From: Lachnospiraceae bacterium
GTDB taxonomy: Bacteria > Bacillota > Clostridia > Lachnospirales > Lachnospiraceae
Assembly: GCA_015056765.1 (NCBI GenBank)
Contig: SVFQ01000003.1
Coordinates: forward strand, 90,433-154,432
Direction: 5' to 3'
Length of the DNA stretch: 64,000 nucleotides
Below are positions 6,202 through 35,292 of this stretch, one piece after another (the stretch's first letter is position 1; each line of letters opens with the position of its first letter). Under the pieces are notes generated by a model. The model was given only the letters and a program-made list of their open reading frames with translations. It searched no databases and was not told the origin of the DNA. A program made the position numbers and the translations under genes.

Positions 6202-7746
6202 ATGAAACTGGAGCAGTATAGTCGCGACGAATTAGATAGAATACTGCGAATCTTGCAACACGCTTTTTCGCAAGTTTATCTGATAGACCCGGATAGGGAA
6301 GAGATTTTACAACTGGGAGATGACGGAATGATTCTACCTACAGGGTCTTATTTACGTGAGGTGGAAGCCTTCGATATGAATCATTGTGAGTCCATCCCGG
6401 TGCGACTTAGTATCGAAAACGGAGAGCAGTATTCAGCACTTTTATGCTACAGCTCCTTACTGAATCAGGAAGCAGCCGGAGAGGAAGCAGAGTATTTCCT
6501 CTATCATGACACGCTGACAGGTCTTTTGAATCAGGAGGGGGTATGCCGCAGAATCAGGGAAGCCCTGGAGCAAAATCCGGACAGACCTTTGGTGTTGGTG
6601 GCTGCCAATCTTTGGAACTACCGGATTTTGACTGATTTATTTGGCAGAGCCAAAGGGACAGAAGTGATTCAAAAAATTGCGGACCTTTTAAGAGAACAAT
6701 GCGGAGAGGGCACCATATACGGCAGAATTCGAGATGATCATTTTGTGGTATGTATGCCTGCAGAGCGTTTCAGTGAAGAAGTGCTGGAAGGCGCTGCTCG
6801 TCAGATCAGGGCTATTCCCATCAGTTCCTCTTATCAGCTTTATATGCATATGGGGGTCTATGTGGTGTCCGATGTCCATATGCCGGTACAGCACATGATC
6901 GATCGAGCTACTTTTGCTATCCATAATATACACAAAGAAGACGATCACTTTATCGCGTATTTCACGGATTCCATGCAGGAAAAGCTGCAGTTGGAAGAGC
7001 AGATACTAGATGAATTTAAGCAGAATCTGGAAGAAGGACGTTTCCAGATTTATTTACAGGCCAGGGTGAATAACAATGCCAGAATAGAGGGAGCAGAAGT
7101 GCTGGTGCGCTGGGTATTACCGGATGGCACCATAAAGGAGCCGGCGGAGTTTTTGGGAATCCTGGAGAAGACAGATTTTATTACCCACATGGATTACTAT
7201 GTATGGGAACAAAGCGTGAAGCTTTTGCATAAGTGGGACGGTAGCAGATTTGGCCATTTGTTTTTGTCTATCAATGTTTCACCAAGGGATTTCTACTATA
7301 TCGACGTAGAACAGGTGCTGACGGAACTTTTGGAGAAGCATCAGGTGCCCAAGGAGAGACTTCGCATTGAGGTGACAGTAAATGCTTTGGCTACGGATTT
7401 AAGTAGACAGATGTTTTATATCAATCGTCTAAAGGCAGCGGGGTTTACCGTTGAGATAGACGATTTTACAAAGAATATGTCTGCTGTGGGGGTGCTGATG
7501 GACACCAAAGCAGACACGTTAAAATTCAACTTAAGATATTTCAGAGATGCCATGGATAATTCACGAAGCAGACAGATGACCTTATCTTTTATCGAAATGT
7601 CGAAAAAACTGGGTATGAAAGTGGCAATCGAAGGAATCGAGACAGAAAAGCAGTTTGAAGAAGCAAAACTGTTAGGCTCCGACACTCTGCAGGGATACTA
7701 TTTTTCAAAGCCTATTCCGGTAGAGCAATTTGAGGCGAATTTATAA
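6202..7746 (+). CDS. GGDEF-EAL domain protein, degenerate GGDEF and partly degenerate EAL
   Basis: DTLTGLLN linker; GGDEF replaced by RIRDDHFVV; EAL region EVLVRW, SINVSPRDF, EIDDFT, TLKFNL, AIEGIETEKQ, LQGYYFSKP. Confidence 0.9.
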   Translation: MKLEQYSRDELDRILRILQHAFSQVYLIDPDREEILQLGDDGMILPTGSYLREVEAFDMNHCESIPVRLSIENGEQYSALLCYSSLLNQEAAGEEAEYFLYHDTLTGLLNQEGVCRRIREALEQNPDRPLVLVAANLWNYRILTDLFGRAKGTEVIQKIADLLREQCGEGTIYGRIRDDHFVVCMPAERFSEEVLEGAARQIRAIPISSSYQLYMHMGVYVVSDVHMPVQHMIDRATFAIHNIHKEDDHFIAYFTDSMQEKLQLEEQILDEFKQNLEEGRFQIYLQARVNNNARIEGAEVLVRWVLPDGTIKEPAEFLGILEKTDFITHMDYYVWEQSVKLLHKWDGSRFGHLFLSINVSPRDFYYIDVEQVLTELLEKHQVPKERLRIEVTVNALATDLSRQMFYINRLKAAGFTVEIDDFTKNMSAVGVLMDTKADTLKFNLRYFRDAMDNSRSRQMTLSFIEMSKKLGMKVAIEGIETEKQFEEAKLLGSDTLQGYYFSKPIPVEQFEANL

Positions 7747-7773: not shown

Positions 7774-10700
7774 ATGCCAGAAATCAGTCATGACACAATT
7801 TGGGTTATTGATGATTCCATCATTAACCAAAAAATCTTGAAGAGAATATTAGAACCGTATTATCCGGTAAAGTGCGAAAGCGATGCAAGAGTTGCCATTG
7901 AAAGAATGCATGCAGAGATGCAGCAGCTGGGTGGTATCATCGTGGATTTACACATGCCGGGATTTAGCGGTCTGGATTTTCTGGAGCACTGCCATCAGGA
8001 TAGGATTTTCACGGACATTCCGATTTTGGTTGCCACTTCGGAAGAGCAGTACCGAGTGGAGAAAAAGTGCTTAGAAATGGGGGCCTGGGATTTTTTGTCC
8101 AGTCCTTTTGAGCCTACGGTAGTGAGACATCGTGTGGACAATGCCATGCATAGAAGTCTTCTTCGTCATAATGATTACGATCAGCTCACAGGACTGTATA
8201 CCAGAGAACGTTTTAATCAAGAAGTACGTCAGATCCTGGATTTGAAACTGGACCAGCAGTATCTCATTATGATGGTGGACATCGATAACTTCAAAGGATA
8301 CAACACCTTCTATGGGATTGAGGAAGGAAACCGCCTTTTGCGTTACCTGGGAAAAGAACTGGGTGACTTGATGCTGAATGTGCCACAGGGTATTTTTGCC
8401 AGATATAGTGCAGATACCTTTTTAGTATTTGGCCCTTATGTAGAGGGCGTGGTAGAGCGTTTCGTGTCTCAAATGACCACCAGACTATCCAGCTTTAACA
8501 GCAGCTACCGTTTAAAGCCTTCTATCGGTGTGTACATCATCGAGGATGAGTCCCTCCCTATCGATATGATGGAAGACCGTGTTCGCCTGGCGGCCAGACA
8601 GTGTAAGGGAAAATACAGAGAATATGTGGGCTACTATGACAGCTCCATGGGAGATAGTATCGTAAGAGAGCAATTCTTGGTCAATAGCATGGAAAAGGCC
8701 CTAAAGAACAAGGAATTCAAGGTGTACTATCAGCCTAAATATAGTCTGACCACCGGAAAGCCTCACGGAGCGGAAGCTTTGGTACGTTGGCAGATGGAAG
8801 ATGGCACCATGGTGATGCCGGGAGAGTTCATTCCGATTTTCGAAAAGAATGTCAGCATCAATACCCTGGATGACTATGTGCTTGAACAGGTATGTATTCA
8901 CCAAAAACAGATTTTGGATAAAGGCTATCAGGCCATTCCTATATCTGTGAATGTATCCTTGCTGAACTTGTATAATCCGAATTTTGCCAGAAAGACCATC
9001 GATTTGATTCGCTCCTATGGGCTTACCAGCAAACATATCGAGTTGGAATTCACAGAGAGCGCATTTCTGGAAAACAGGGATATGATTTTGGATGTGATGC
9101 ATGAACTTCACGAAGCAGGATTTGTGATTTACATGGATGATTTCGGAAAGGGATCAGCCAGCCTTGGTATGCTACGAGATTTGCCTGTGGATTATCTGAA
9201 AATCGATATGTCTCTTTTGCCAAAGAATCCGGCAAGAGAGCGTGGCGGCAAAATCCTCACCTCCATCATCCGTATGGCGGAACAGCTGAAGCTTGCGGTG
9301 GTGATGGAAGGCGTGGAAAACGAAGACCAGGTACGCTTCTTGCAGGATGTAAACTGTGATTACGTACAGGGCTTCTTCTTTGCAAAACCGATGCCGGAAA
9401 CGGAGTATGACGCCATTGTGGAGGCGGGATATCCACCGGTTACGTTGCCGATAGAAAGCAGTTATGTGACTAGCCTAACCGGTATTTGGAGCTCCGAAAA
9501 TGCATTGCAGAGATTCTTCGATCATGTAGAGTCTCCTATGCTTGTGGTGATGAATACCCCTAGTGGTTATGAGGTGGTACGTACCAATCACGCCTATCAG
9601 GAACAGTTCGGAGACGGTGCTCCGGATGAGAAAGGTAAGTGCAAGTTAAACTGGGATGTATCAGCAGATGACCAGGCCATGATGGATATAGAATTTACGA
9701 AAGCATGGCAGACAGGAAAAGACGTGACATTCTCTTTGCGCTTACAGCCGGGAGAAGACCTGGAGAAAGAGACGTTCTGGGCAGAAGTGAAAGTTTCACC
9801 TATTACCAGAGTGGCGCAGCGTGTTTACTTTTTGGTAAAAGTAGAGAACTTTGTACATATGAACAAAGAGGATGTGACTTTCGACGAAGAATGTCATACA
9901 GAGGGGCCGGGATTAATTGCACTGAAAATGGCTGGGGTTCTGAGTTGGATTTATCATCCAAAGACCCACGAGATTCATCAGTTCAAGGAGCTTCGTATGC
10001 TCTATAACTTTGGCGAACGAATCTCTAATGTACCTCAGTCTTTGATTGATTTGAAGGTGGTGCATCCGGATGATGTGGAGGAGTTTTTGGATGTATTTAC
10101 CAGACTGGACCGCGGGGAACCTTATGTAGAGGCCAGCCTTCGTATGAAACGTGCTGTAACTTCGCCGCAGTATTACTATGTGCATTTCTGCTATAGCACC
10201 CAGTATGATGCAAATGGAGAGCCGGAGCGATGTGTAGGTGTGCTTTTGGAGACCAAGAATGGTCCAAAGGTGGCCAAAGATGATATGGTGACCATACGTC
10301 AAATGCGCAGCATGACACCGGATACCTATTTCTTATGCGTGCTGAATCTCAATAGAGAGATTATGGAAAGCGTACAGACCTCTGTGCCGGAGATGGATAG
10401 AAAGCTAGAGAATATCACTTCGGAAAATGTGTTTGAGCAGATTGCAGAGCTGTTCTGCACAGATCCATCCAAGAAAAAGCAGATGAGTACTATCACTACG
10501 GAGATGCTTCTCCGCTATTATTACAAGCATCCGAAGGAGAACTACGAGTTATCCTTTAGAAAAATCTGGGGCGCCACAGGTCGAATCCAGTACCTTGCCT
10601 TGGAAGTATACTTCATGAAGAATAAACGTGGTGAAATCTATGCCTTCTGCTATATCAGGGATGTGGATCGCCGCTTCAAAGAAAAGAAGATGCTGGAAAA

Positions 10701-11190
10701 CAGGGCAAGCCAAGATGGTATGACGGGCCTTTTGAATCATGCTGCTACGGTAGAGCAAATTGAAGACTACCTGCGGGGAGATGGCAAAGATGGTTCTCAC
10801 GCTTTGTATATGATCGATGTGAACCATTTTAAGAAAATCAATGATACCTATGGGCATCTGGCCGGAGATAAGGTCATCAAGGAAATCGCTCATAAATTGG
10901 AAAGTCAGTTTAGACGTTCTGATGTAGTGGGACGTTTCGGCGGCGATGAATTTGTGGTATTTATGAAGGATATCCGCAATGATGACAGGGCCGCGGAGAA
11001 GGAAAAAGAACTGGCCGAGTTCCTTAGCTTTAAAAACTGGGAAGACGGAAAGGGCTTTGTGTGCTCCTGCAGTATCGGCACTTCGGTATGTCACCAGGGA
11101 GACAAAGACTTCACCACCATGCTGAAAGAAGCAGATGAACGGATGTACAAAGCCAAAAAGAAACACAAAAGTTTGGCAGGCCTGGAGTAG
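7774..11190 (+). CDS. REC - GGDEF(degenerate) - EAL - PAS-like - GGDEF cyclic-di-GMP signalling protein
   Basis: WVIDDS/IIVDLHMPG receiver; ARYSADTFLVF; EALVRW, NVSLLN, ELEFTES, MDDFGKG, YLKIDM, MEGVENEDQ, VQGFFFAKP; C-terminal IDVNHFKKINDTYGHLAGD and GRFGGDEFVVF. Confidence 0.93.
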   Translation: MPEISHDTIWVIDDSIINQKILKRILEPYYPVKCESDARVAIERMHAEMQQLGGIIVDLHMPGFSGLDFLEHCHQDRIFTDIPILVATSEEQYRVEKKCLEMGAWDFLSSPFEPTVVRHRVDNAMHRSLLRHNDYDQLTGLYTRERFNQEVRQILDLKLDQQYLIMMVDIDNFKGYNTFYGIEEGNRLLRYLGKELGDLMLNVPQGIFARYSADTFLVFGPYVEGVVERFVSQMTTRLSSFNSSYRLKPSIGVYIIEDESLPIDMMEDRVRLAARQCKGKYREYVGYYDSSMGDSIVREQFLVNSMEKALKNKEFKVYYQPKYSLTTGKPHGAEALVRWQMEDGTMVMPGEFIPIFEKNVSINTLDDYVLEQVCIHQKQILDKGYQAIPISVNVSLLNLYNPNFARKTIDLIRSYGLTSKHIELEFTESAFLENRDMILDVMHELHEAGFVIYMDDFGKGSASLGMLRDLPVDYLKIDMSLLPKNPARERGGKILTSIIRMAEQLKLAVVMEGVENEDQVRFLQDVNCDYVQGFFFAKPMPETEYDAIVEAGYPPVTLPIESSYVTSLTGIWSSENALQRFFDHVESPMLVVMNTPSGYEVVRTNHAYQEQFGDGAPDEKGKCKLNWDVSADDQAMMDIEFTKAWQTGKDVTFSLRLQPGEDLEKETFWAEVKVSPITRVAQRVYFLVKVENFVHMNKEDVTFDEECHTEGPGLIALKMAGVLSWIYHPKTHEIHQFKELRMLYNFGERISNVPQSLIDLKVVHPDDVEEFLDVFTRLDRGEPYVEASLRMKRAVTSPQYYYVHFCYSTQYDANGEPERCVGVLLETKNGPKVAKDDMVTIRQMRSMTPDTYFLCVLNLNREIMESVQTSVPEMDRKLENITSENVFEQIAELFCTDPSKKKQMSTITTEMLLRYYYKHPKENYELSFRKIWGATGRIQYLALEVYFMKNKRGEIYAFCYIRDVDRRFKEKKMLENRASQDGMTGLLNHAATVEQIEDYLRGDGKDGSHALYMIDVNHFKKINDTYGHLAGDKVIKEIAHKLESQFRRSDVVGRFGGDEFVVFMKDIRNDDRAAEKEKELAEFLSFKNWEDGKGFVCSCSIGTSVCHQGDKDFTTMLKEADERMYKAKKKHKSLAGLE

Positions 11191-11233: not shown

Positions 11234-11575
11234 ATGAGCAAACTGACAGAACAATTAGAACTGATGGGTTGCGATATGGAAGGCGCCCTGAATCGTTTTT
11301 TGAATGATGAAGAGTTCTATGAAGAGTGCTATGGCGACGTGCTTGTAGATCCTGCATTTGGAAAGCTGAAAGAAGCACTGGAAGCCAAAGATGCTGAGAC
11401 AGCATTTCAGTGTGCCCACACGTTAAAGGGTGTGATTTCCAATATGGGACTTACTTCTATGTACGATATCATCGTACGTATTGTAGAGCCGCTTCGCAGT
11501 GGAAATGCAGATAACCTGATGCCAATTTACGATGAATTGATGAAAGACTTTGAGAGATACAAAGCTTTGGTCTAG
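11234..11575 (+). CDS. stand-alone Hpt (histidine phosphotransfer) protein
   Basis: 113 aa with CAHTLKGVISNMGLTSM Hpt motif. Confidence 0.88.
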   Translation: MSKLTEQLELMGCDMEGALNRFLNDEEFYEECYGDVLVDPAFGKLKEALEAKDAETAFQCAHTLKGVISNMGLTSMYDIIVRIVEPLRSGNADNLMPIYDELMKDFERYKALV

Positions 11576-13630: not shown

Positions 13631-16024
13631 ATGATGGAATTCCTAAAGGCGCACCAGCTCAATCTGATGCTGATTCTAATGGGAGTTAATCTAGGCATGG
13701 CAGTTCTGGCATCTTTTACCAAGGTGATTCCCAAAAAAAGAAAACATATTCTGGTGTCTATCGAGCTTGGCGCTGCCTTACTCTTGTTTTTTGACCGGTT
13801 GGCTTATCTGTACCGTGGAGATGTATCCACAGCCGGTTATTATGTCGTGCGTATCGCAAACTTTGCCACTTTTTTTCTGACAATTATATTAATCACTTTG
13901 TTTGAAGCTTATTTACGTGACTTATATACGAAAGAGGGCGGCTTGAAGCAAGCACCAAGACGTCTAAACGCCTGCTGGGGTATGAGTATGATGGCCTGCT
14001 GGCTTTTGATTGTGTCACAGTTTACAGGTTGGTATTACACATTTGATGCCCAAAATTTCTATCACAGGGGACCCTTATTTGTTTTGTGTTATGTCTTTCC
14101 GGTAGGTATGATGGTAATCCTTTTGTCTGTAATCATACAGTATCGGAACAGACTATCCAGATATGTTTATATGGGTATCCTGCTGTTTACTTTAGTTCCA
14201 TTTATCGCTTCCATCATTCAGATTTTCTGTTATGGCTTGTCACTGATTAATATTTCCATGGTGGGAATGGCTGTCCTTTTGTATTTCCTGGTACTGGATG
14301 ATATGAACCTCAAAGCCAGAAAAGCTACGGAAATGGAAATCTCTTATGCAAAGGCCGGACAGAGAATTTCCCAGACACTTTTCGAACAGACAGCAGAGAC
14401 TTTGGCTACGGCCATCGATGCAAAGGATAGATACGCCAAAGGTCATTCTTTACGTGTGGCAGAGTATGCCAGAAAAATAGCAGAAGCAGCAGGCAAAGAT
14501 TCAGCACGATGCTATGAAATCTATTACGCTGCACTGCTTCATGATGTAGGTAAGCTTGGTATCCGGGATAGCATCATCGGAAAGATGGGCAAACTGACGG
14601 ATGAGGAATACGAGGAAATGAAAACCCATTCCCAAATCGGCAGCGACATTCTTTCCAGTATCACCAAATTCCCGTATTTAAGTATCGCGGCGAAGTATCA
14701 TCACGAACGATATGATGGGAAGGGATATCCGGAGCATTTAAAAGGCGAGGATACACCGGAGATTGCCAGAATCATTGCAGTGGCTGATGCTTATGATGCT
14801 ATGAGTTCCAATCGAAGCTATAGAAGTATGCTTCCGCAACAAAAGGTAAGAGAAGAGATTTTGAAGGGCTCAGGCACACAGTTTGATCCTAAATTTGCAA
14901 AGATTATGCTTCATCTCATAGACGAAGATGTGAACTATGAGATGAAGCAGAGAGAGTCTTTGAAGGAATTGTCCGGCCGAGATTCTTTGTATTGCAATGA
15001 ATATGGTAGCGAGTATTCGGAAGGTATCCATCTTTCGGATTGTATTACCAGAATCCATATTCATAGTAGAAGTGATAACGAGCATACTTCCAGAAACACC
15101 GTGCCAAGTTTGATTTTGTTCGATTCTTTGGATGAACGTGTTCATTACAAAGACGGCAAAGAGCAGGAAATGAACTATATGGAATTTGGTGTGATTTCCC
15201 TGAACGGCACGGTACAATGCAAAGAGGCAAGAAAAATACAAAAGGATGTAAACTACCTAAACGATAACGTAGACATGGTAAGTGTGTACAGGGAAGGCTT
15301 GGACTATGATATCGATGCGGTTCGCGTGAAAGACCATATCAGCATCAAAGTCAGAAACAAATACCAAAACGTGGATTACACCATTGCCTTGCCGGACAGT
15401 ATCCGATTTGCTTACATAGCTTTAACCGGTGAGTATTGTAATATTACCCAGGTTGGCATCCATACAGATGATAAGAAGGTATCTGACAGGTACATTTCTC
15501 GTATTGCTGATGAAGTATCTTATATCGATGGACCGGTGGGAGACATACCCAATGTACAGATAAATAACTGGTGCAGTGATACCTCTCAGGCTGTTCCGTT
15601 AAAGGACAAAATGACCATTCGGTTCCATGCAAAGACCATGCCACCTGCCAGATTGATATGGCATTGTCCATACATCAGATTGTTTTATTCTGAGGACCAA
15701 AAGGTGGATGGCCCAGGCTATAAAAACTTTATCGTAGTCAGACTGGATGGTGAAAACTGGGATTCCGACCCTACGGCAGATAATGAGGTAAACGTAGAAG
15801 TAGGAGATGATTTTGTAGGCTGGGATGTGTGGAAAGAAAGGCACAGACAGGGCTTTGAATGCGAAGTCAGAATTACCCGGGAAGACGATAAAATCCACAT
15901 CGAAACAGAGAACTTCGGCTTAAAGGTTAGCGCCACTACAGTAATCAAACAGAAAACGCCGGAAGTCTATGTATGTTTAACTGGAGATATTGTAGCGCTG
16001 ACAAACATTAGAATTACAGAATAA
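13631..16024 (+). CDS. 7TM - HD-GYP - tandem beta-rich C-terminal domain protein (intact HD-GYP copy)
   Basis: About 7 TM helices; HSLRVAEYARKIA, LLHDVGKLGI, KTHSQIGSDIL, YHHERYDGKGYPEHLKG; C-terminal about 350 aa ending VYVCLTGDIVALTNIRI. Confidence 0.88.
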   Translation: MMEFLKAHQLNLMLILMGVNLGMAVLASFTKVIPKKRKHILVSIELGAALLLFFDRLAYLYRGDVSTAGYYVVRIANFATFFLTIILITLFEAYLRDLYTKEGGLKQAPRRLNACWGMSMMACWLLIVSQFTGWYYTFDAQNFYHRGPLFVLCYVFPVGMMVILLSVIIQYRNRLSRYVYMGILLFTLVPFIASIIQIFCYGLSLINISMVGMAVLLYFLVLDDMNLKARKATEMEISYAKAGQRISQTLFEQTAETLATAIDAKDRYAKGHSLRVAEYARKIAEAAGKDSARCYEIYYAALLHDVGKLGIRDSIIGKMGKLTDEEYEEMKTHSQIGSDILSSITKFPYLSIAAKYHHERYDGKGYPEHLKGEDTPEIARIIAVADAYDAMSSNRSYRSMLPQQKVREEILKGSGTQFDPKFAKIMLHLIDEDVNYEMKQRESLKELSGRDSLYCNEYGSEYSEGIHLSDCITRIHIHSRSDNEHTSRNTVPSLILFDSLDERVHYKDGKEQEMNYMEFGVISLNGTVQCKEARKIQKDVNYLNDNVDMVSVYREGLDYDIDAVRVKDHISIKVRNKYQNVDYTIALPDSIRFAYIALTGEYCNITQVGIHTDDKKVSDRYISRIADEVSYIDGPVGDIPNVQINNWCSDTSQAVPLKDKMTIRFHAKTMPPARLIWHCPYIRLFYSEDQKVDGPGYKNFIVVRLDGENWDSDPTADNEVNVEVGDDFVGWDVWKERHRQGFECEVRITREDDKIHIETENFGLKVSATTVIKQKTPEVYVCLTGDIVALTNIRITE

Positions 16025-19300: not shown

Positions 19301-19390
19301 TAGTAATCGTGCCAGGGCTTAGGCATCAAAAGAATTAGATAACGACTAAGTCGAATGTAATAAAGGAGATGGCAGATGCCATCTCCTTTT
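19301..19390 (+). ncRNA. candidate structured leader/attenuator or small RNA upstream of an HD-GYP operon
   Basis: Bounded by the promoter above and the terminator AAAGGAGATGGC-agat-GCCATCTCCTTTT; 7-bp helix GGCTTAG:CTAAGTC and a competing GGCATC:GATGCC pairing. Confidence 0.5.
19362..19390 (+). terminator. strong Rho-independent terminator about 60 nt upstream of the HD-GYP start
   Basis: AAAGGAGATGGC / GCCATCTCCTTT stem followed by a short T tract. Confidence 0.8.
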
Positions 19391-19451: not shown

Positions 19452-21602
19452 GTGAAGGGGAATACTCATAGATCAAACAAAGACAGTATGCTTCGAGCAG
19501 AGTGCACTATGCTTGCTGTGGCGATTAATGTGGTATTGGCTTATCTGTCAAATAGATTAGGCCTTCCGATTTATTTGGACACCATAGGTACTATGTGCAT
19601 TGCGGCAATGGCAGGATTGTTTCCTGGCATTATGGCGGCAATCGCAACTAACGTGCTTTGCATCATGTTTGATGATACGGCGATTTACTTCGGTATTGTC
19701 AACGTGATAGTTGCCATGTATACCGCTTGGAGCGTACGAGAGAAAAACTTTCGGAAAGTTAAGACAGTTGTCGTATTTATCCTGACTGCAGGTGTACTTG
19801 CGGGCAGTTTAAGTGCTATTCTACAATACGGCCTTTTTAGAGGCACCCAAAATGCAGCGATTAACACCCTCATGGAAACCGTGGTGGGACCCGGCAAGAC
19901 ACCGGGATTTACTGCTTTATTTGTGGTGAACGTATTTCTCAATATCTTTAATTTGGGGCTGTCTATAGTCGTCACCTTAATTATCTTATATCTGGTACCA
20001 GATGAAACTCAAAAAAGAATTCGATATAGCGGTTGGAGGCAAAAACCTCTGACAAAAGAAGAACTGAAGGAAATGGATTTCCTCAGTAGGTCAGTGGATT
20101 TTTCGGTGAAAAAAAGAACGACGATCATGCTTTTCGGCGTTGCTTTTACGTTGTCACTTATCATGGCTTGGATCGGCATAAGATTGTATTTCAAAAGCTA
20201 TAAAGAAAGCCGAATTGATTCTGCTACATACGCGGCCAAATTTGCTGCTGAATTGATTGATGGCGACCAAATGGCAGAGTATTTGGCAAAAGGAGAAAAA
20301 GCACCGGGCTATGCAGAGACGGAGCATATGCTTACTCACATTAGAGAAACGGCTGCCGGTGTGACCAATCTTTATGCAGTTCAGTTTAGAGAGAATGGCG
20401 TTCATATCGCTTTTGACTTGGATACGGAGGATATGGATGGGGTAGAAGCCGGAACGATACTGCCGCTGAAAGAAGCTTTCAAACCGTACATCAACGATTT
20501 TTATGCAGGCAGAGAAGTGGAACCTATCGAGAATGACTCTTTAGAAGGCTGGCTGGTAACCGCTTGTGCACCTATCTTTGATAGCAAAGGCAGATGTGTA
20601 GGGTATGCAGCTGCTGATGTTGTTATGAGCTATGTAACAGAGTATATGGGGGATTTCTTTAGGAGAGCCTTCATGATTCTGTCCGGGTTCTTTATTCTGG
20701 TACTTGGTTATGGGCTTTGGACCGCAGGTATTTATATGGTTTATCCTTTGGATAAAATGATGGAGGGTGTGGAAGAATTCATTGAGGCCGGTGCTGATCA
20801 GCAAAAGTTAGATGATGCAGTCAGACACCTAAGAACCATTGATGTACATACCGGAGATGAGATAGAGAAACTATATGAACTTATCTGCAACATGGCATCA
20901 AATCAAACGGAACAGATTCGCAGCATTCAGAGATTCAATGAAAATACAGCGAAACTACAAGATGGTCTTATTATTACCATGGCTGATTTGGTGGAAAATC
21001 GTGATTCCGATACGGGAGACCATATTCAAAAGACTGCTGCCTACGTGAAGATTATCGTAGAAGGATTGAAAAAGAAGGGATATTACGCGGAAAAACTTAC
21101 TCCGAAATTTATGTCAGATGTGGTAAGGTCTGCGCCATTACATGACATCGGGAAAATCAATATTTCGGATAAAGTATTAAACAAGCCCGGTAAACTTACG
21201 GATGAGGAGTACGAGATCATTAAGACTCATACTACTGCGGGTAAGGACATCATAGAAAAGGCTATCAATACGGTAAAAGGAGAAAGCTACTTAAAAGAAG
21301 CAAGAAACATGGCAGCTTATCACCATGAGCGTTGGGATGGCAATGGGTATCCGGAAGGATTACATGGAGAAGTGATTCCACTTTCAGCCAGAATCATGGC
21401 TGTGGCGGATGTATTCGATGCCTTGACCTCTCCAAGAGTATATAAGGAGGCGTATCCATTGGATGTGGCTCTGAAAATGTTGGAGGATGGATCCGGTACA
21501 CAGTTTGATCCAAAATGCGTCGAGGTCTTTATAGAAGCGCTTCCGGAAGTGAAAGTCATCTGGAGAAGATACAACCAAGGTAAGCAGAAAGGCTTGTCAT
21601 GA
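19452..21602 (+). CDS. membrane HD-GYP phosphodiesterase with ECF-S-like TM domain and Cache-like extracytoplasmic region
   Basis: GTG start with AGGAGGA; multi-TM N-terminus, second TM pair around about 200 aa; HD-GYP motifs APLHDIGKINI, KTHTTAGKDI, YHHERWDGNGYPEGL. Confidence 0.88.
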   Translation: MKGNTHRSNKDSMLRAECTMLAVAINVVLAYLSNRLGLPIYLDTIGTMCIAAMAGLFPGIMAAIATNVLCIMFDDTAIYFGIVNVIVAMYTAWSVREKNFRKVKTVVVFILTAGVLAGSLSAILQYGLFRGTQNAAINTLMETVVGPGKTPGFTALFVVNVFLNIFNLGLSIVVTLIILYLVPDETQKRIRYSGWRQKPLTKEELKEMDFLSRSVDFSVKKRTTIMLFGVAFTLSLIMAWIGIRLYFKSYKESRIDSATYAAKFAAELIDGDQMAEYLAKGEKAPGYAETEHMLTHIRETAAGVTNLYAVQFRENGVHIAFDLDTEDMDGVEAGTILPLKEAFKPYINDFYAGREVEPIENDSLEGWLVTACAPIFDSKGRCVGYAAADVVMSYVTEYMGDFFRRAFMILSGFFILVLGYGLWTAGIYMVYPLDKMMEGVEEFIEAGADQQKLDDAVRHLRTIDVHTGDEIEKLYELICNMASNQTEQIRSIQRFNENTAKLQDGLIITMADLVENRDSDTGDHIQKTAAYVKIIVEGLKKKGYYAEKLTPKFMSDVVRSAPLHDIGKINISDKVLNKPGKLTDEEYEIIKTHTTAGKDIIEKAINTVKGESYLKEARNMAAYHHERWDGNGYPEGLHGEVIPLSARIMAVADVFDALTSPRVYKEAYPLDVALKMLEDGSGTQFDPKCVEVFIEALPEVKVIWRRYNQGKQKGLS

Positions 21603-24600
21603 AGAAAAGAAAAAACAGAATTGCGGCGGCTATTATGGCTGTAGCAATAGCCGCTGTACAGATACAGACAAATACAATGCTGGTGGAAGCCGCAGAAGCA
21701 GGTTACGATGATTATGGAGGTGCCTATGCTGCAACCAAGCAGATTTATGGGGTGGGATACACCACGGAAGTGTATGATGCCACCAATGGTCTGCCTACCA
21801 GTGATGCTATGTTTATTCTAGGCGCCCGGGATGGGCGAGTATGGATAGGCGGCTACAGTGGTGTGATCCGCTATGATGGAACTACATTTGAACGTATGGA
21901 TACCCAAAATGGACTCACCAGTGCAAGAGGATTCTTTCAGGATAGCAAGGACAGAGTCTGGGTGGGAACCAACGACAATGGTGTCGTTGTCTTAGATGGA
22001 AATGAACGTACTTGGCTCACCTATAAGGAGGGGCTTCCTTCATCCTCTATTCGTATTTTTTCTGAGGACCAGAACGGGAATGTCTTTATTGGTACCACTG
22101 CCGGAGTTTGCTATGCAGATCAGGATTTGAAAATTCACGCTGTAACAGGGGCAGATTTTTCGGATGAACGAGTACTGAAATTACAGGCTGATGCAACAGG
22201 TAAGATTTATGGACAGACTTCCAATGGCATTATCTTTACCATTGAGAACTGCCAGGTTACAGAGCAGTACACCGGAGAGTTGCTGGGTATGGAGAAAATC
22301 TCCACTATTATGGTGGATCCGAAACAGGATGGATATGTCTACATCGGTACCGACAATTCCATCGTGTATCATGGTAAATTCGGGGATCATGCCTGGCAAA
22401 TGGAAATGATTGATACGGACCAGTTAAAGGGCATACACTGGCTGGAGTATTCCTGTAATCGCGTGTGGGTTAGTTCCTCCACCAGACTTGGTTATATAGA
22501 TGGCAATCATGACTATCATGAATTAGAAGATATTCCGTTAGACAGTGGTATTGAAATGATGACCACAGATTATCAGGGGAATCTATGGGTGGCAAGTTCC
22601 ACACAGGGCGCCATGAAAATCGTCACCAACAATTATACGGATCTAAGCAGCAGGTCGGGGCTTCCGGCGGAAGTAGTAAATGCCACTTGTCTCCATCAGG
22701 GAGACTTATACATTGGCACGGATAATGGCTTGCAGATTCTGGGAATCAGCGGCAGGCTTATTAGCAATAGTCTGACAGAGTACTTAGAAGGCGTAAGAAT
22801 TCGATGCATCAAAGAAGACTTGAAAGGAAATCTTTGGATTGCCACCTATACAGGTGATATTGGACTTATATGCTATTGCCAAGATGGCTCCATCAAACGG
22901 TATACTATCAAAGATGGATTATTGGACAATCGTGTTAGATCCATAGATGTTACCGACGATGGCAAGATGCTAATCGGTACCAATGGCGGATTATCTATCA
23001 TTGAAAAAGACCGTATTATCCACAGCTACGGAAATGAGGACGGTATTGAAAATACTGTACTTTTGACTGTGTGCGAAGGAACAAATGGAGAGTATCTGAC
23101 AGGTTCGGATGGCGGTGGACTTTATGTGATCAAAGGGGATAAGGTAACGCACTTGGGGTTAGAGGATGGCCTTACCAGTGAAGTTATCATGCGCATCAAA
23201 AAAGACAGCACAGAAGAGAATCTTTTTTGGATTGTTACTTCCAACTCCATCGAAATGATGAAGAACGGTGTGATTACAGAGATATCTAACTTCCCTTTCA
23301 ATAATAACTACGATATTTATTTCGACCATGATGATCATATGTGGATTCTTTCTTCTTACGGTGTATATACCTTGACGAAAGACCAAATGCTACACAATGA
23401 GATTACAGATTATGAGTTATACACAGTAGAAAACGGATTACCCTATGGTATTACGGGAAATTCCTACAGTGCGCAGGATGAAAACGGAAATCTGTTGATT
23501 CCGGGTCGAAATGGTGTGATTCAGGTCAATGTGGATCATTATTTTGAAGAGCAGATACCGATTCTGATTGATATCAATGGAATCTTTTGCGATGACAATA
23601 GAATAGAACCGGATGAAAATGGCGTCTATCAGATTCCTGCTTCCGAGGGACGTGTACAATTCCAAGCATCTGTGCTGGATTATACCATGATCAACCCTAC
23701 TATCCATATGTATTTGGAGGGTGGCCCGGATGGAGGATTCACTGTTCCGAGAAGTAGATTGACAGCTTTGGAATACACAAATCTGCCCTACGGGGAGTAC
23801 ACGTTACATATCCAAGTTTTGGATAAAAAGACAGACGCAGTTTTACAGGATGAAGTATTCAAAATTAAAAAAGCGGCAAGATTTAGCGAACTAATGACAA
23901 TCAAAATCCTAATCGTAGTGCTGGTAGGACTTTTGGTGGGATTTATTGTATGGAGAACCATGCGTGCTACAGTCGTTGCCAGACAGTATGAGGAAATTAG
24001 GCAGGCAAAGGAAGAAGCTGAAAATGCCAATTCCGCAAAGTCCAGATTCCTGGCAAATATGTCTCATGAAATTCGTACCCCGATTAACACCATTATGGGT
24101 ATGAATGAGATGATGATGCGTGAAGATCCTACGGGAGTACCTAAGGGCTATTTCATGTCCATGATGAATTACGCCTTTGATGTGGAAAATGCAGCGGAAT
24201 CTCTTTTGGGCTTGATTAATGACTTATTGGATATTTCCAAAATCGAATCCGGCAAGATGCATCTGGTGGAGCAGGAATATGATGTGCAGGAAGCTTTGCG
24301 CAGCATCGTTTCAATGATTCGCGTCAGAGCCAATGCGAAGGAACTGAATTTTGATGTTGTTGTAGATGAAATCCTTCCAAGACGCATGTATGGCGATGTG
24401 GGCAAAATCAAACAGATTATTCTGAATCTTTTGACCAATGCCGTGAAGTACACGGAAGCCGGTGGTTTTATCCTGGATGTAACACTAGAAGAACGCTATA
24501 ACAATATCGCCAAATTGAAAATCTCTGTAAAAGATACCGGTATGGGTGTCAAAGAGGAAGATTTAGATAAGCTCTTCCACGCATACGAACGTCTGGACGA

Positions 24601-25825
24601 AGAAAAGAACAGCGGTATTCAGGGAACGGGCCTTGGTTTGAATATTTCCAGTAAGTTTGCGGAATTATTAAATGGTACCCTGGTGTGCGAAAGTGTTTAT
24701 GGAGAAGGGAGTACGTTTACCCTCACCATTCAGCAAAGGATTGTGGATGATACACCGCTTGGGGCTTTTGCAGAACACGATGAGACCAGTGTCAAAGGCC
24801 CTTATGTACCACAGTTTATTGCCCCGGATGCAGATATTCTGGTAGTAGATGACAATCCGATGAATTTGAATGTTATCAAGGGGCTTTTGAAGGCTACCAA
24901 AGCCTTTGTTACCACTTCCTCCAGTGGAGAAGATGCCATTGATAAGATTAAGGATAATCATTTTGATGTGGTACTGCTAGACCACATGATGCCGGGACTA
25001 GATGGTGTGGAAACCTTGCAAATCATTCGTAAAACGCATCCGGACTTACCGGTATATGCGCTAACCGCAAACTCTACTGCCGGAGAAGAGTATTATAAGT
25101 CCAAAGGCTTTAATGGATATTTAGCTAAGCCGATTGAAAGCGAAGTGCTTGAGAAGACCATCATGCAGCATCTGTCTAAAGATATGATGGAAATACCTAC
25201 TGCAGCAGATGCGGTAGAAGAAATGGCAGAGATGCCGCAGGATCTTTCCTGGATTTACGAGACAGATGGTATTGTGCCGGAAGAGGGTATCAAGAATTCC
25301 GGTGGTATTTCCGGATACATTTTTGCATTGAATCTTTTCTTAGATACTATTGATGAAAATGCGAAGGTGATAAAGGACGCTTATCAGGCAGATAATCTAA
25401 GACTGTATACCATTAAGGTACATGCCTTGAAGAGCTCAGCCAGAATCATCGGCGCTATGGATTTGTCCCACATGGCACAAAAACTGGAAGATGCCGGCAA
25501 CAAACAGGATAAGGCGTATATCGATGAGTATCACGCAGACTTTATGGCAGAATACGAAAGCTTTAAAGAGAAACTTAGTCAGTTAAAAGAAGAAGCTGCT
25601 GGAGAAGATAAAAAGCCGATTCCGGAAAATCAGTTGCGAGAAGCTTTTGAAGCTTTGCAAGAAGTGGTTCCGCAGATGGACTATGATGCGGTGGAGGTTA
25701 TTTTGGAACAATTGCAGGAGTATAAGCTTCCGGAAAAAGAAGCGGAGATTATCAAGCAACTTGCACAGAAGATGAAGAAGTTCGATTGGGATGGTGTAGA
25801 AGAACTTGTAAAAGGCGTTCACTAG
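21599..25825 (+). CDS. hybrid sensor histidine kinase: signal peptide - two-component propeller repeats - Y_Y_Y-like - TM - HisKA - HATPase - REC - Hpt
   Basis: Repeats of the type DGRVWIGGYSGVIRYDG, DRVWVGTNDNGVVVLDG, GNLWVASSTQGAMKI; FLANMSHEIRTPINTIMG; GTGLGLNISS; ILVVDDNPMNL ... LLDHMMPG; KVHALKSSARIIG. Confidence 0.93.
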   Translation: MKKRKNRIAAAIMAVAIAAVQIQTNTMLVEAAEAGYDDYGGAYAATKQIYGVGYTTEVYDATNGLPTSDAMFILGARDGRVWIGGYSGVIRYDGTTFERMDTQNGLTSARGFFQDSKDRVWVGTNDNGVVVLDGNERTWLTYKEGLPSSSIRIFSEDQNGNVFIGTTAGVCYADQDLKIHAVTGADFSDERVLKLQADATGKIYGQTSNGIIFTIENCQVTEQYTGELLGMEKISTIMVDPKQDGYVYIGTDNSIVYHGKFGDHAWQMEMIDTDQLKGIHWLEYSCNRVWVSSSTRLGYIDGNHDYHELEDIPLDSGIEMMTTDYQGNLWVASSTQGAMKIVTNNYTDLSSRSGLPAEVVNATCLHQGDLYIGTDNGLQILGISGRLISNSLTEYLEGVRIRCIKEDLKGNLWIATYTGDIGLICYCQDGSIKRYTIKDGLLDNRVRSIDVTDDGKMLIGTNGGLSIIEKDRIIHSYGNEDGIENTVLLTVCEGTNGEYLTGSDGGGLYVIKGDKVTHLGLEDGLTSEVIMRIKKDSTEENLFWIVTSNSIEMMKNGVITEISNFPFNNNYDIYFDHDDHMWILSSYGVYTLTKDQMLHNEITDYELYTVENGLPYGITGNSYSAQDENGNLLIPGRNGVIQVNVDHYFEEQIPILIDINGIFCDDNRIEPDENGVYQIPASEGRVQFQASVLDYTMINPTIHMYLEGGPDGGFTVPRSRLTALEYTNLPYGEYTLHIQVLDKKTDAVLQDEVFKIKKAARFSELMTIKILIVVLVGLLVGFIVWRTMRATVVARQYEEIRQAKEEAENANSAKSRFLANMSHEIRTPINTIMGMNEMMMREDPTGVPKGYFMSMMNYAFDVENAAESLLGLINDLLDISKIESGKMHLVEQEYDVQEALRSIVSMIRVRANAKELNFDVVVDEILPRRMYGDVGKIKQIILNLLTNAVKYTEAGGFILDVTLEERYNNIAKLKISVKDTGMGVKEEDLDKLFHAYERLDEEKNSGIQGTGLGLNISSKFAELLNGTLVCESVYGEGSTFTLTIQQRIVDDTPLGAFAEHDETSVKGPYVPQFIAPDADILVVDDNPMNLNVIKGLLKATKAFVTTSSSGEDAIDKIKDNHFDVVLLDHMMPGLDGVETLQIIRKTHPDLPVYALTANSTAGEEYYKSKGFNGYLAKPIESEVLEKTIMQHLSKDMMEIPTAADAVEEMAEMPQDLSWIYETDGIVPEEGIKNSGGISGYIFALNLFLDTIDENAKVIKDAYQADNLRLYTIKVHALKSSARIIGAMDLSHMAQKLEDAGNKQDKAYIDEYHADFMAEYESFKEKLSQLKEEAAGEDKKPIPENQLREAFEALQEVVPQMDYDAVEVILEQLQEYKLPEKEAEIIKQLAQKMKKFDWDGVEELVKGVH

Positions 25826-25843: not shown

Positions 25844-28222
25844 ATGATTTATAACTTTATATTGAAAAACCAAATGGACATTATGCTGGGCTTGTGCGCT
25901 GTTTCCATCATGATGGTCATCATGCTTCTTCTGACAAGATTCATGGCACCCAAGAGAAAGCGAATCCTGCTTATGGTGGAAGTCGTGGCGGCACTTTTAC
26001 TTGCTTCTGATCGAGCTGCTTACCTGTATCGCGGAGACGTGAGCCAAAAAGGGTACTTCATGGTGAGATTCTCGAATTTCATGGTGTTCTTTTTGACACC
26101 GGCAGTGGTGCTGGGGTTCAATAGTTATCTGACAGACCTTTTGGAAACAGAGGGCAAGTTAGAAAAGATTCCCAGGCGATTGACCATATCGGGACTAGCT
26201 GCTGTTATGGGGATGTTACTGGCGATTCTGGCTCACTTTACAGGCCTGTACTATACCTTTGATGCGCAGAATGTGTATCACAGGGGCCCGGGCTTTCTGA
26301 TTGCATATATCATACCGGTGGTTTTTCCACTGATTCAATTTACGGTCATTCAGCAATATCGGAAAACCTTTAGTAAACTGATTTATGTATCCTTGGTTCT
26401 GTTCATCTTCGTGCCAATTGCTATGGGAATTCTGCAGATTTTTGCCTATGGGATATCCATTGTGAATATGGCTATGGTGCTGGTATCCTTATCTTTGTAC
26501 TTTTTCTCTTACCTGGACATCAACGAAGTGGTAGAGAAAGCGCATGAGATGGAAGTGGAAGACTTGCACAAAGAACAGGACAGCATGAAAAGACTGTTCA
26601 ATCAGACGGCTACCGCCTTTGTTTCAGCAGTTGAGAAAAGGGATGTGTTTTCCGAAGGTCATGCTACCAGGGTGGCAGAACTAGCCAGACGTATCGCCAC
26701 AGCTGCCGGCAAAAGCGAAGAGGAAAGTGAAAAGGTATACTATGCGGCCTTGCTTCATGATGTAGGTATGATCGGCATCTCGGATGCGGTGATAGAAAAA
26801 GCGGAAGATTTAAATAGCGAGGAATACGAGGAAGTAAGACATAAGCCGGAACTAAGTGCACAAATCCTTTCGGCGATTGAAGAGTATCCTTATCTCAGTG
26901 AAGGGGCTAAGTACTCCTGTGAAAGATACGATGGAAAAGGATATCCTAATGGCCTGAAAGGGGAAGAGATTCCGGAAATCTCTCGTATTATCACGGTGGC
27001 GGATGCCTATGATAACATGCATTCCAGAAAGAGGTTCAGGGATCCACTTTCCTATATCGTGATCCGAGAAGAATTTGTCAAAGAATCCGGCGGACAGTTC
27101 GATCCGAACTATGCAGAAATCATGCTGCAGATTATGGATGCAGAGCATTTGAAAAATGAAACACAGGAATACAGGCCACTGGAAACAGAGCTTTCCTGCA
27201 AAGAGTACAGAGAGCATGTGTCTTCCGGCATTCCGATAGAAGAAGAGGAGACGCGAATCACCTTTGACTATCGGGAAGATAAGGAGAATAAAGAAGAATT
27301 CTCAGCACCATCGTTAATCCTGTTTGATGCATATGATAGACAGACTCATGTGAATATCAAATCCATTGAGGCTTACCGGTATCAGGAATATGGAGAGGTT
27401 TGGTTTGATGGAAAGTATATTTCCACCAGTGCCAGAGATATGGAACTGGAGGAACTGGAAAAAGAAAAAAGAGGTCGTAAGATAAAATTTTCCGGAGGAA
27501 GTTATGAAATTACTACCGGAAGGTTTGAGGATCATTTTTTCGTCAGGATGATCAGCCCTAATCGAAGTCAGGAACTGGTTGTGGCGCTGCCCAATATCTC
27601 CAAATCAGCATACATTGGACTTACCTGCGAGCATGGTACCTTGTCGAATATCCGGACAGAAAAGACCGGAAGGGTGATGGAAGACGGAGATATCAAAAGA
27701 TTGGTGGGGGAAATCAGTTATACCAATAGACTGGAATCAGACTTGCCAAATCTCCAAATCGATAAAACCAGGTCAGCCGCCACTGTAGGGCTTTTGCTGA
27801 GAGACTATATGAGGATTGATTTCCATACCATGAGCCTTCCTACAGCGAATCTGGTTTGGCACTGTGCGTATATTCTGATTTTTAATTCTGAGGATGGCAT
27901 GGTGTTTGGGAAGAATTACAAAGAGTATGCTATGATAAAGATAAACGGGGAAGTTTCGCAGGATGAAGGCACTGCAGAAAATGACTTCGAGATGAAAAAG
28001 GAAAGTTCTTTCCAGGGCTTCAATGCATGGAAAGAAGCCAATAAAGAAGGCATCGAATGTACTGTCGAGCTGGTTCGCAAGGGCAATACGGTTCGATTGA
28101 AAACAGAGAATTTAGGTGTGTTTATTCAAAACACCACCACCATCAAAGAAGGTGATGGGAAAGTGTATGTAGCCCTGACGGGAGATCAGGTTGCATTAAC
28201 AGACATTAGAGTAAGAAGCTAA
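25844..28222 (+). CDS. 7TM - degenerate HD-GYP - tandem beta-rich C-terminal domain protein (paralogue of 13631-16024)
   Basis: Shared AYLYRGDVS, FTG.YYTFDAQN.YHRGP and C-terminal NLVWHCAYI/VYVALTGDQVALTDIRV; HD-GYP residues substituted (HDVGM, YSCERYDGKGYP). Confidence 0.85.
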   Translation: MIYNFILKNQMDIMLGLCAVSIMMVIMLLLTRFMAPKRKRILLMVEVVAALLLASDRAAYLYRGDVSQKGYFMVRFSNFMVFFLTPAVVLGFNSYLTDLLETEGKLEKIPRRLTISGLAAVMGMLLAILAHFTGLYYTFDAQNVYHRGPGFLIAYIIPVVFPLIQFTVIQQYRKTFSKLIYVSLVLFIFVPIAMGILQIFAYGISIVNMAMVLVSLSLYFFSYLDINEVVEKAHEMEVEDLHKEQDSMKRLFNQTATAFVSAVEKRDVFSEGHATRVAELARRIATAAGKSEEESEKVYYAALLHDVGMIGISDAVIEKAEDLNSEEYEEVRHKPELSAQILSAIEEYPYLSEGAKYSCERYDGKGYPNGLKGEEIPEISRIITVADAYDNMHSRKRFRDPLSYIVIREEFVKESGGQFDPNYAEIMLQIMDAEHLKNETQEYRPLETELSCKEYREHVSSGIPIEEEETRITFDYREDKENKEEFSAPSLILFDAYDRQTHVNIKSIEAYRYQEYGEVWFDGKYISTSARDMELEELEKEKRGRKIKFSGGSYEITTGRFEDHFFVRMISPNRSQELVVALPNISKSAYIGLTCEHGTLSNIRTEKTGRVMEDGDIKRLVGEISYTNRLESDLPNLQIDKTRSAATVGLLLRDYMRIDFHTMSLPTANLVWHCAYILIFNSEDGMVFGKNYKEYAMIKINGEVSQDEGTAENDFEMKKESSFQGFNAWKEANKEGIECTVELVRKGNTVRLKTENLGVFIQNTTTIKEGDGKVYVALTGDQVALTDIRVRS

Positions 28223-28236
28223 GAGAGGGATAAGAC

Positions 28237-29718
28237 ATGAATGAAAAAGCAAGAGTCAACAAAGTAATGATTACCTGTTATACCACCATGGTGGTGATTT
28301 TAGCACTGGCATATTTGCTGGAGCTTGCAAAGGGTGCAAAGACAGTAGGGTACATCGTGATTTTCTTATTACTGGATTTGGTACCGTGGGGATTTACATT
28401 CTTTCTATATAAGAAAGATGCTACATTAGAACTTGTACAAAAGGGCAGTGCTTACGGCTTTTGCCTGCTGTATATTTTCGCATTATTGACCAGTGATTCA
28501 CAGCTTAGCTTTATCTATGCATTTGTGCTTTTGACGGCAATGATTGTAACCAATAATTTCCCCCTTATGAGAAATTATGCCATTGCGGTTGTACTTGCCA
28601 ATATCGTAGCGGTAGCCATGGCGTTTTTGACTAATCCGGAAAAGGCAAAAGCCAATATGGCTTCCTATGAGATTCAGATTATCGCCACGATTTTAATGTC
28701 GATTTTTGCACTGGTAGGTATCAATACATCCAGCAGAATCAATGCAGAGAAGTTGGAAGAATCTGAGCGAAATGCAAAGAGCGAAGAAGAACTGCTTAGA
28801 ACAACCTATAGCGTTGTGAATAACGTAACGGAAAGAGCTACAGAAGTAGGTAGTAATGTAGACCTGCTTTCTGCTTCTGCAAAAGATACTGTAGAATCTA
28901 TGCACCGGGTGAGCAGTGGAGCGCAGCAGACTGCGGATGCGTTAGAGCAGCAGATGACTATGACAGGAGAAATCCAGGGTATTATCAAAGAGGCGAATGA
29001 TTTATCCGATGAAATCAAAGAGCTTTCTGAGAACGCTGCTTCTCATGTAAAGGTGGGCATGAAGAATGTGGAGGAATTACATTCCAGTTCCGAGCAGTCC
29101 AAAGAAAGCAGTGAAAATGTAACCAATGAAATGGATGTGCTGACTGCGAAAACAGAGGATGCCATTAAAATTACCAGTATCATCAATGGCATCGCAAAAC
29201 AGACCAGCCTCCTAGCACTGAATGCTTCCATCGAAGCAGCAAGAGCAGGAGAAGCCGGCAGAGGATTTGCGGTTGTTGCTACTGAAATCAATAATTTGGC
29301 AAGCCAAACCCAGGGGGCTACAGCAGACATTGAAAAAATTATCGATGAACTGAAAGCGGCTAGTGGCGCTGCCAGAACTGCAGTAGAGCAGCTTTCCGAG
29401 CAGGCTTCCAAACAGTCGACGCTGATCGAAGAGACCAAAGAGGGCTTTACCAGCATCAAAGACAGTGTGGAGACGGTAAATGAAAACGCCAAAACACAGG
29501 CTAGTAAGATGAAAGAACTAGAGAAGAGCAATCAGGCTATTGTGGAAAGTATCGATCACATTTCTGCGGTATCTCAGGAACTGACTGCCAATGCCCAGCA
29601 GACGGTGGAAGTATCCGATCAGAATGAAGAGATTTCTGAAGGCATCAAAGAGAGTATGAAGAAAGTTCTGAATATTCTGGATGCATTTAAAAAGAAATAT
29701 ATGGTAGATGCAGAATAG
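28237..29718 (+). CDS. methyl-accepting chemotaxis protein with multi-TM N-terminus
   Basis: [40 protein letters not shown] hairpin tip signature. Confidence 0.95.
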
Positions 29719-34068: not shown

Positions 34069-35292
34069 ATGAGAAACGCATGGCTAAATAGAGGTATCGT
34101 GGCGGCGTTTGTCATGCTGCTTTCTTTTTCACAGGTTGGCTGTGAATTACCGGATACTCTGGATGGATATCGAGATATCATCGAGAGTGAGCTTTTTGTT
34201 ACCACAGAAGAAGCCTCTTTGCCTGAAGAAGAGCAGAGCGAGACAGCGGAGTCTACTGTACTATCCGGAAAAGAGATTATCGAAGGCAATGATAGTTTTA
34301 GCGAAGATGGGTATTACTACAGCCTTTTGAGTAGTGAAGAACAGACCGTTTATCAGGAAGTGGTGGAAGCAATTCAAAATAGATCTTCCAAGCAGGTTTC
34401 TACGCTTTCAGAGGACATTTTAAAAAAGACCTATCAGGCTTATTTAAACGATCATCCGGAAGTCTTTTATCTGCAAGGATATACCTTTACCAAACATATG
34501 GTGGGAGATAAACTGGACCATATGTCAGTGGAAGGAAAGTTTGCCTATACTGCGGAAGAGATAGCGGAAAAGCAGGCTCAGGTAGATGCGGTGGTAGATC
34601 AGTTCCTGCAAAGCGTGCCGGAACCTGCATCGGATTATGAGAAATCCAAGCTGGTGTATGAGTACCTGGTGAAAGAAACCACCTATCAGCAAGGTGTGTC
34701 CGATAATCAGAACTATCTGTCCGTCTTTTTGGAACACAAATCTGTGTGCAACGGCTATGCCAAGGCAGCCCAGTATATGTTCCACAAAATGGGAATCCCT
34801 TGCATCGTGGTAAACGGAGATGCCGGAGGAGATAAACACGCCTGGAATATGGTGGTGCTGGACGGCAGTTATTGTGAGTTCGATGCTACCTGGGGTGATA
34901 TGTCTTATCATGGAGAGGGCAAAGAGAATGCCCCTGAAATCAATTACAGTTATCTGAATCTTTCCAGCGAAATGATGGGCAAAACCCACGCGGTGGATGG
35001 CATGTTTCCGGTGCCAAAGGCAGAAAGTGATGATCACAGCTACTATCAGCAGGAGGGAAGATACTTTACCTCTTATGACAAGGAGCAGTTAAAGGCTGTA
35101 GCCCTGGATTCCGCAAAGGATGGTGTGATTCGCATACAAGCCCGGGACGAGGCTCTCTATCAGGAACTTTATCAAAGCTTAATCGAGGATCAGGACATTT
35201 TCGATTACCTGGAATATGCAGGACTTACAACAGACGGAAATCTATCTTTTGTGACGGAAGATGAACTATACACCCTAAGCTTTTGGAAATGA
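34069..35292 (+). CDS. transglutaminase-like domain lipoprotein
   Basis: Signal peptide with FSQVGC lipobox; transglutaminase core HKSVCNGYAKAAQYM ... DKHAWNMVVLDG ... EFDATWGD. Confidence 0.85.
   Translation: MRNAWLNRGIVAAFVMLLSFSQVGCELPDTLDGYRDIIESELFVTTEEASLPEEEQSETAESTVLSGKEIIEGNDSFSEDGYYYSLLSSEEQTVYQEVVEAIQNRSSKQVSTLSEDILKKTYQAYLNDHPEVFYLQGYTFTKHMVGDKLDHMSVEGKFAYTAEEIAEKQAQVDAVVDQFLQSVPEPASDYEKSKLVYEYLVKETTYQQGVSDNQNYLSVFLEHKSVCNGYAKAAQYMFHKMGIPCIVVNGDAGGDKHAWNMVVLDGSYCEFDATWGDMSYHGEGKENAPEINYSYLNLSSEMMGKTHAVDGMFPVPKAESDDHSYYQQEGRYFTSYDKEQLKAVALDSAKDGVIRIQARDEALYQELYQSLIEDQDIFDYLEYAGLTTDGNLSFVTEDELYTLSFWK

Follow-up and report, generated by a model that had tools for sequence, protein, structure and literature searches.

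A predicted pseudo-phosphodiesterase with a degenerate HD-GYP domain in a conserved c-di-GMP operon of rumen-associated bacteria

The protein that we call D, encoded in a 64,000-nucleotide stretch of Lachnospiraceae DNA (the window), joins a 7TM sensor module to an HD-GYP domain in which catalytic residues have been replaced, and these replacements are shared by a whole clade of relatives. We consider it probable, with moderate confidence, that D is a pseudo-phosphodiesterase, acting as a non-catalytic 7TM receptor or regulator in a conserved c-di-GMP operon. This description covers two overlapping cases, in which D is a receptor for c-di-GMP or a regulator of A, the intact HD-GYP protein of the same operon (Table 1).

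Table 1. Features of D, of its operon and of its surroundings in the window
Feature	Position	Strand	Remark
Terminator-like hairpin between TIM gene and A	19362..19389	+	Found by pattern alone; shuffles give at least as many hairpins overall
A: intact HD-GYP phosphodiesterase, N-terminal ECF-S-like membrane region	19452..21602	+	All ligands in 65/65 orthologues
B: hybrid sensor kinase, Reg_prop propeller, HisKA, HATPase, REC, Hpt	21599..25825	+	4 bp overlap with A; ends 18 bp before D
D: 7TM, degenerate HD-GYP, tandem lectin-like protein, 792 aa	25844..28222	+	AF2 full-length mean pLDDT 88.3
D 7TM sensor module, residues 1-225	25844..26518	+	Helices in AF2 model
D degenerate HD-GYP domain, residues 255-432	26606..27139	+	Pfam HD_5 2.7e-27
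M309 replacing catalytic lysine K225 (HDVGM)	26768..26770	+	M/L/I in most of 76 orthologues
K334 replacing metal ligand H250	26843..26845	+	K in 58/76 orthologues, H in 0/76
S358-C359 replacing metal ligands H276-H277	26915..26920	+	First position S in 48/76; second still H in 45/76
GYP motif kept, residues 366-368	26939..26947	+	G, P in 76/76; Y in 69/76
D C-terminal tandem beta-sandwich, galectin/laminin-G-like, residues 440-792	27161..28219	+	AF2 pLDDT 92.6
Methyl-accepting chemotaxis protein (MCP)	28237..29718	+	14 bp downstream of D
Intact paralogue of D, 797 aa	13631..16024	+	Outside conserved operon

The open reading frame of D has an ATG start and no internal stops. Two conserved motifs of the 7TM module, LYRGDVS and FTG.YYTFDAQN.YHRGP, both lie in loops, which would be extracellular if the HD-GYP domain is cytoplasmic and the basic loops are inside; the basic loops and the position of the HD-GYP domain would likewise place the C-terminus in the cytoplasm. 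No Pfam family scored significantly against the 7TM module. A related 7TM, also without a Pfam family, is fused to a GGDEF domain in another protein of the same genome (L012), and this type of 7TM may be an undescribed MASE-like sensor. A long stalk helix spans residues 206-264. The HD-GYP domain has retained its fold: it scores 96 bits against the HD_5 profile (curated cut-off 27.2), carries the GYP motif and, in Foldseek searches with the AF2 model, matches the solved HD-GYP structures of PA4781 (4R8Z, TM 0.82) and of DvhD with c-di-GMP (9RBZ, TM 0.81-0.84). The C-terminal module gave no sequence match in Pfam or PDB searches; its Foldseek matches are tandem galectins and laminin LG4-5 (E about 1e-6 to 1e-5, single-domain TM about 0.45), and we regard it as an unclassified, putatively lectin-like module on the likeness of the fold.

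We compared the catalytic residues of D with those of PmGH (4MCW) and DvhD (9RBZ) by alignment. In PmGH numbering, K225 is replaced by M309, H250 by K334, H276 by S358 and H277 by C359, whereas the equivalents of D183, H189, H221, D222, Y285 (the tyrosine of GYP), D305 and D308 are kept. The three motifs on which the original prediction was built, HDVGM, RHKPELS and YSCERYDGKGYP, are all present in D. That prediction had taken the loss of the His ligands to suggest the loss of the metal centre. Three of the five histidine ligands are indeed gone, together with the catalytic lysine, but the H...HD...D quartet remains, so that for D alone this claim goes too far. Of the residues that define an active HD-GYP phosphodiesterase (H189, H221, D222, H250, H276, H277, D305 and K225), D lacks H250, H276, H277 and K225. 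Substitution of Ala at any one of these four essentially abolishes the activity of PmGH, whereas changing GYP or the base contacts has no such effect (PMC4159591). Because four PmGH-essential positions are replaced, loss of c-di-GMP hydrolysis is strongly predicted for D, in a domain that still matches HD-GYPs in Foldseek, as originally proposed. VCA0681 is active though it is without one PmGH-essential residue (PMC4212101), and with this precedent and an intact quartet D may keep one metal and some residual activity.

Relatives of D were retrieved from genome collections and their open reading frames called by a simple script; the named loci were found by two 7TM-region peptide patterns and are the best 80 of 118 by similarity to D, a sample that favours D-like proteins and includes many MAGs. 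The 107 relatives with a C-terminal module were kept for a tree. In this quick, midpoint-rooted tree, made without bootstrap from the C-terminal module alone with the HD-GYP columns left out, 83 degenerate proteins form one clade (SH-aLRT 99). Its members belong to Lachnospiraceae, Ruminococcus and Treponema, mostly rumen bacteria, and come from MAGs as well as from isolates of Ruminococcus albus, Butyrivibrio, Agathobacter ruminis, Acetitomaculum ruminis, Eubacterium xylanophilum and Treponema bryantii. Loss at the same positions runs through this clade of 83 homologues, which excludes chance or a sequencing error as its cause and answers the original call for a check of conservation in orthologues.

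Residues were counted in the 76 degenerate sequences with a full HD-GYP domain. Histidine never occurs at the H250 position, where lysine is the usual replacement (Table 1), the H276 position holds S, C, V, A or T in nearly all and the K225 position is mostly M, L or I. There is no variation at G364, G366, P368, I376, P377 or R381, and little at Y367. H189 is lost in 33 of the 76 and D222 in 17 (15 N, 2 E). The recurrence of the same replacements (K, S, M/L), unlike random drift, suggests that a new constraint acts on these positions. The dN/dS of the dead domain is about 0.03-0.14 for close degenerate pairs with usable dS, a rough range with several dS values saturated, and at these low ratios the HD-GYP domain of the clade is under purifying selection. 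Outside the main clade, H250, H276 and D305 have been lost independently in a protein (L036, G112:C57:219312-221711) that adjoins a homologue of A. An HD-domain protein in the same genome as D (L181, G000:C19:98718-99083) has HDIGM in place of HDxGK and an intact HH pair.

Seven members on the tree have lost the GYP region altogether, with an HD-GYP span of 126-134 residues against 178. Two different in-frame deletions occur in separate parts of the tree and arose independently. The Treponema-type deletion consists of three smaller excisions, around residues 313-341, around 364-373 and at the R314 loop, and the other takes out some 50 residues in a single block (around 319-371), with the equivalents of H250, HH and GYP. 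The flanking HD-GYP helices are still present in these proteins, which in their 7TM and C-terminal modules are no less conserved than other members. Because the GYP-deleted members are otherwise normal, the function of the family as a whole cannot need catalysis, and because the cleft has been removed, the function in these lineages cannot need the canonical nucleotide site.

D is encoded in a conserved operon. We clustered the genes neighbouring it across the retrieved loci, and in these D is preceded by A and then B, all in one orientation and mostly no more than some tens of bases apart, A being about 715 aa and B about 1200-1440 aa, with an Hpt domain in most. In 31 loci B and D are separated by C, a 252-aa pair of receivers; the phospho-Asp of the second receiver is present in every one of the 37 cluster members. 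C is found only where B has Hpt (29/57 vs 0/13, Fisher p = 0.0004, kinship ignored). Linkage to A and/or B holds for 75 of 79 degenerate or GYP-deleted D genes, the other four being at contig ends. Among 299 genomes drawn from the same family, 24 have an operon-type D, and A lies on the same contig within 10 kb in 22; the remaining two are fragmented, with A on another contig. A itself keeps every ligand in all of its 65 orthologues and the DDHHDKHHHGYPDDRK pattern in 63 of them. Its N-terminal membrane region, which resembles ECF transporter S components, scores 66 bits against the CD3073 family, below the cut-off of 180, and could possibly sense a vitamin-like ligand. The hairpin upstream of A would fit with A being the first gene of an operon of its own. 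Other c-di-GMP genes lie nearby, encoding GGDEF-EAL (6202-7746) and REC-EAL-PAS-GGDEF (7774-11190) proteins, as does a gene for a lone Hpt protein (11234-11575).

The slot of D is in some loci filled by an intact or nearly intact copy. Seven same-slot proteins (L106, L108, L113, L114, L116, L121 and L168) keep all or all but one catalytic residue, and those on the tree (all but L121, with L168 appearing as L025) have their branches outside the degenerate clade. Because these intact or near-intact copies fall outside, an active D probably lost catalysis within an operon that was already assembled with an active A; this is the simplest reading of a tree whose root was placed at the midpoint. In three loci (L081, L117 and L119) a degenerate or GYP-deleted copy is followed directly by an intact HD-GYP member of the family, which in L119 is cut off where the contig ends.

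D was originally paired with the protein at 13631-16024 as an inactive and an active partner. The two are paralogues from end to end (41% identity) and the latter has all of the PmGH residues compared above, both those replaced and those kept in D, but it lies outside the operon, and in nine of the 24 genomes with an operon-type D (G011, G135, G153, G203, G207, G224, G240, G252 and G290) a degenerate D is the sole full-length bearer of the C-terminal module, with no intact second copy; G135 has besides it only a 43-position fragment. Because these nine genomes have D without it, this paralogue is not a required partner, and we reject the two as a conserved unit. The conserved active partner of D is A, two genes upstream.

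How D works if it does not hydrolyse c-di-GMP can be read in two ways. D could be a receptor of the DvhD type, in which metal-free binding of c-di-GMP splays the stalk helices and either drives the lectin-like output or signals from inside to outside via the 7TM module; this is a serious possibility, to which we give somewhat less than an even chance. The HD-GYP domain of DvhD is without metal and binds c-di-GMP with movement of the stalk helices and without hydrolysis (PMC13090378), and D shares its combination of lost metal ligands and a kept fold in both the alignment and Foldseek. The nearest solved ligand-bound fold is DvhD with c-di-GMP, and the contacts of DvhD correspond largely to residues of the same or similar type in D (L577 to L323, Y621 to Y367, M646 to M392, R650 to K396 and Y652 to F398), with K582 differing as Y328. 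With five contacts the same or similar, binding of c-di-GMP by D is plausible, and the receptor role in the original prediction is plausible by the analogy with DvhD. In the clade, the tyrosine of GYP is found in 69 of 76 proteins, M392 in 66 and R399 in 56, with lysine at the K396 site in 43 and leucine at the L323 site in 28. However, the clade varies more than intact copies do at the base-contact positions, and members that are otherwise normal have lost the GYP loop and the segments next to it through the two in-frame deletions. With two lineages lacking the cleft and the contact positions only partly kept, c-di-GMP binding cannot be a universal function of the clade. Alternatively, D could be a regulatory subunit of A, as heterodimer partner or allosteric modulator, with the HD-GYP fold kept as a dimerization surface. 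We hold this tentatively: the operon linkage, from which contact between D and A is inferred, is near-invariant and is to an intact HD-GYP gene, HD-GYP domains dimerize in PmGH and DvhD (PMC13090378), some D members without the cleft keep the flanking helices and degenerate HD-GYPs reportedly exert their effects via other c-di-GMP proteins (PMC12570481). A and D differ, however, in membrane region and in HD-GYP subtype, the E185 position being Asp in A and F or Y in D.

Mononuclear HD hydrolases exist, and D might still hydrolyse c-di-GMP or another phosphodiester with a single metal held by the intact quartet (H273, H305, D306 and D387). We consider this very unlikely, given the effect of each single Ala substitution on PmGH (PMC4159591). 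In the clade, losses at H189 and D222 and deletion of much of the site in two lineages indicate that the quartet is not under catalytic constraint. A decaying pseudogene or sequencing artefact, which the departure of some key residues of D from the family consensus might suggest, is next to inconceivable: full-length reading frames occur in dozens of species within a conserved operon, and we reject this explanation on the substitutions shared clade-wide and the low dN/dS. The decoy role first suggested found no support.

For D as a pseudo-phosphodiesterase we propose the following working. The input would be a ligand at the extracellular 7TM loops or c-di-GMP in the metal-poor HD-GYP cleft, and, as in DvhD, it would shift the stalk helix together with the HD helical bundle. 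The shift would be passed to the tandem lectin-like module, to A or to both, so that D would report or tune the c-di-GMP pool set by A. In the lineages without a cleft, only a role as transmembrane-to-output relay or in partner regulation would remain.

Degenerate HD-GYPs are already known from DvhD, PA2572, NosR, HdgB and VC1087/VCA0895. DvhD of Desulfovibrio vulgaris (9RBZ/9RC0, PMC13090378) resembles D in connecting a degenerate HD-GYP domain to a transmembrane sensor through a stalk helix, in having lost metal ligands including the HH pair and in keeping the GYP tyrosine. It differs in having dCache and PAS domains and in having lost the HD dyad and kept H250 and K225, whereas D has a 7TM module, keeps HD, has lost H250 and K225 and has gained the C-terminal tandem lectin-like module. 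The locus survey showed no recurrent gene for a LapG-like protease next to D; a Transglut_core protein is encoded at 34069-35292, several genes from D. PA2572 of Pseudomonas aeruginosa (YN-GYP) is also a non-catalytic variant with a regulatory role, but is a REC-HD-GYP response regulator (PMC3411652). PA2572 binds the MCP PA2573 (PMC3411652); an MCP gene adjoins D too, but in the window only, and we reject it as a conserved partner. The hdgA and hdgB genes of Streptomyces venezuelae, like A and D, are an intact and a degenerate HD-GYP gene, with consecutive-looking numbers (vnz24090, vnz24095); HdgB is described as lacking the GYP residues, and neither a hybrid kinase nor a lectin-like module is reported for the pair (PMC6205966). 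NosR of Burkholderia pseudomallei is a degenerate HD-GYP whose operon also encodes a sensor kinase, but is of REC-HD-GYP type (HG-GTP), without a membrane or lectin-like domain (PMC12570481). We found no description of the architecture of D, its operon or the graded series of losses in the literature searched (HD-GYP with Lachnospiraceae, rumen or Butyrivibrio; few subscription journals covered).

A more speculative picture, which as a whole we consider rather unlikely, is an undescribed operon of rumen-associated Lachnospiraceae, Ruminococcus and Treponema in which a 7TM receptor with a pseudo-HD-GYP domain and a cytoplasmic tandem galectin-like module is coupled to an active HD-GYP enzyme and to a hybrid kinase of the propeller type. 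One protein would then read both c-di-GMP and glycan, with the HD-GYP domain now a conformational relay whose nucleotide site two lineages have discarded. Degenerate HD-GYPs have so far been studied singly, and here a large clade of them stands beside intact relatives in the same operon slot. The fixed loss of H250 and H276 and the two independent deletions of the cleft form a natural series in which to study how a phosphodiesterase may become a receptor, and the finding points to a c-di-GMP system in rumen bacteria.
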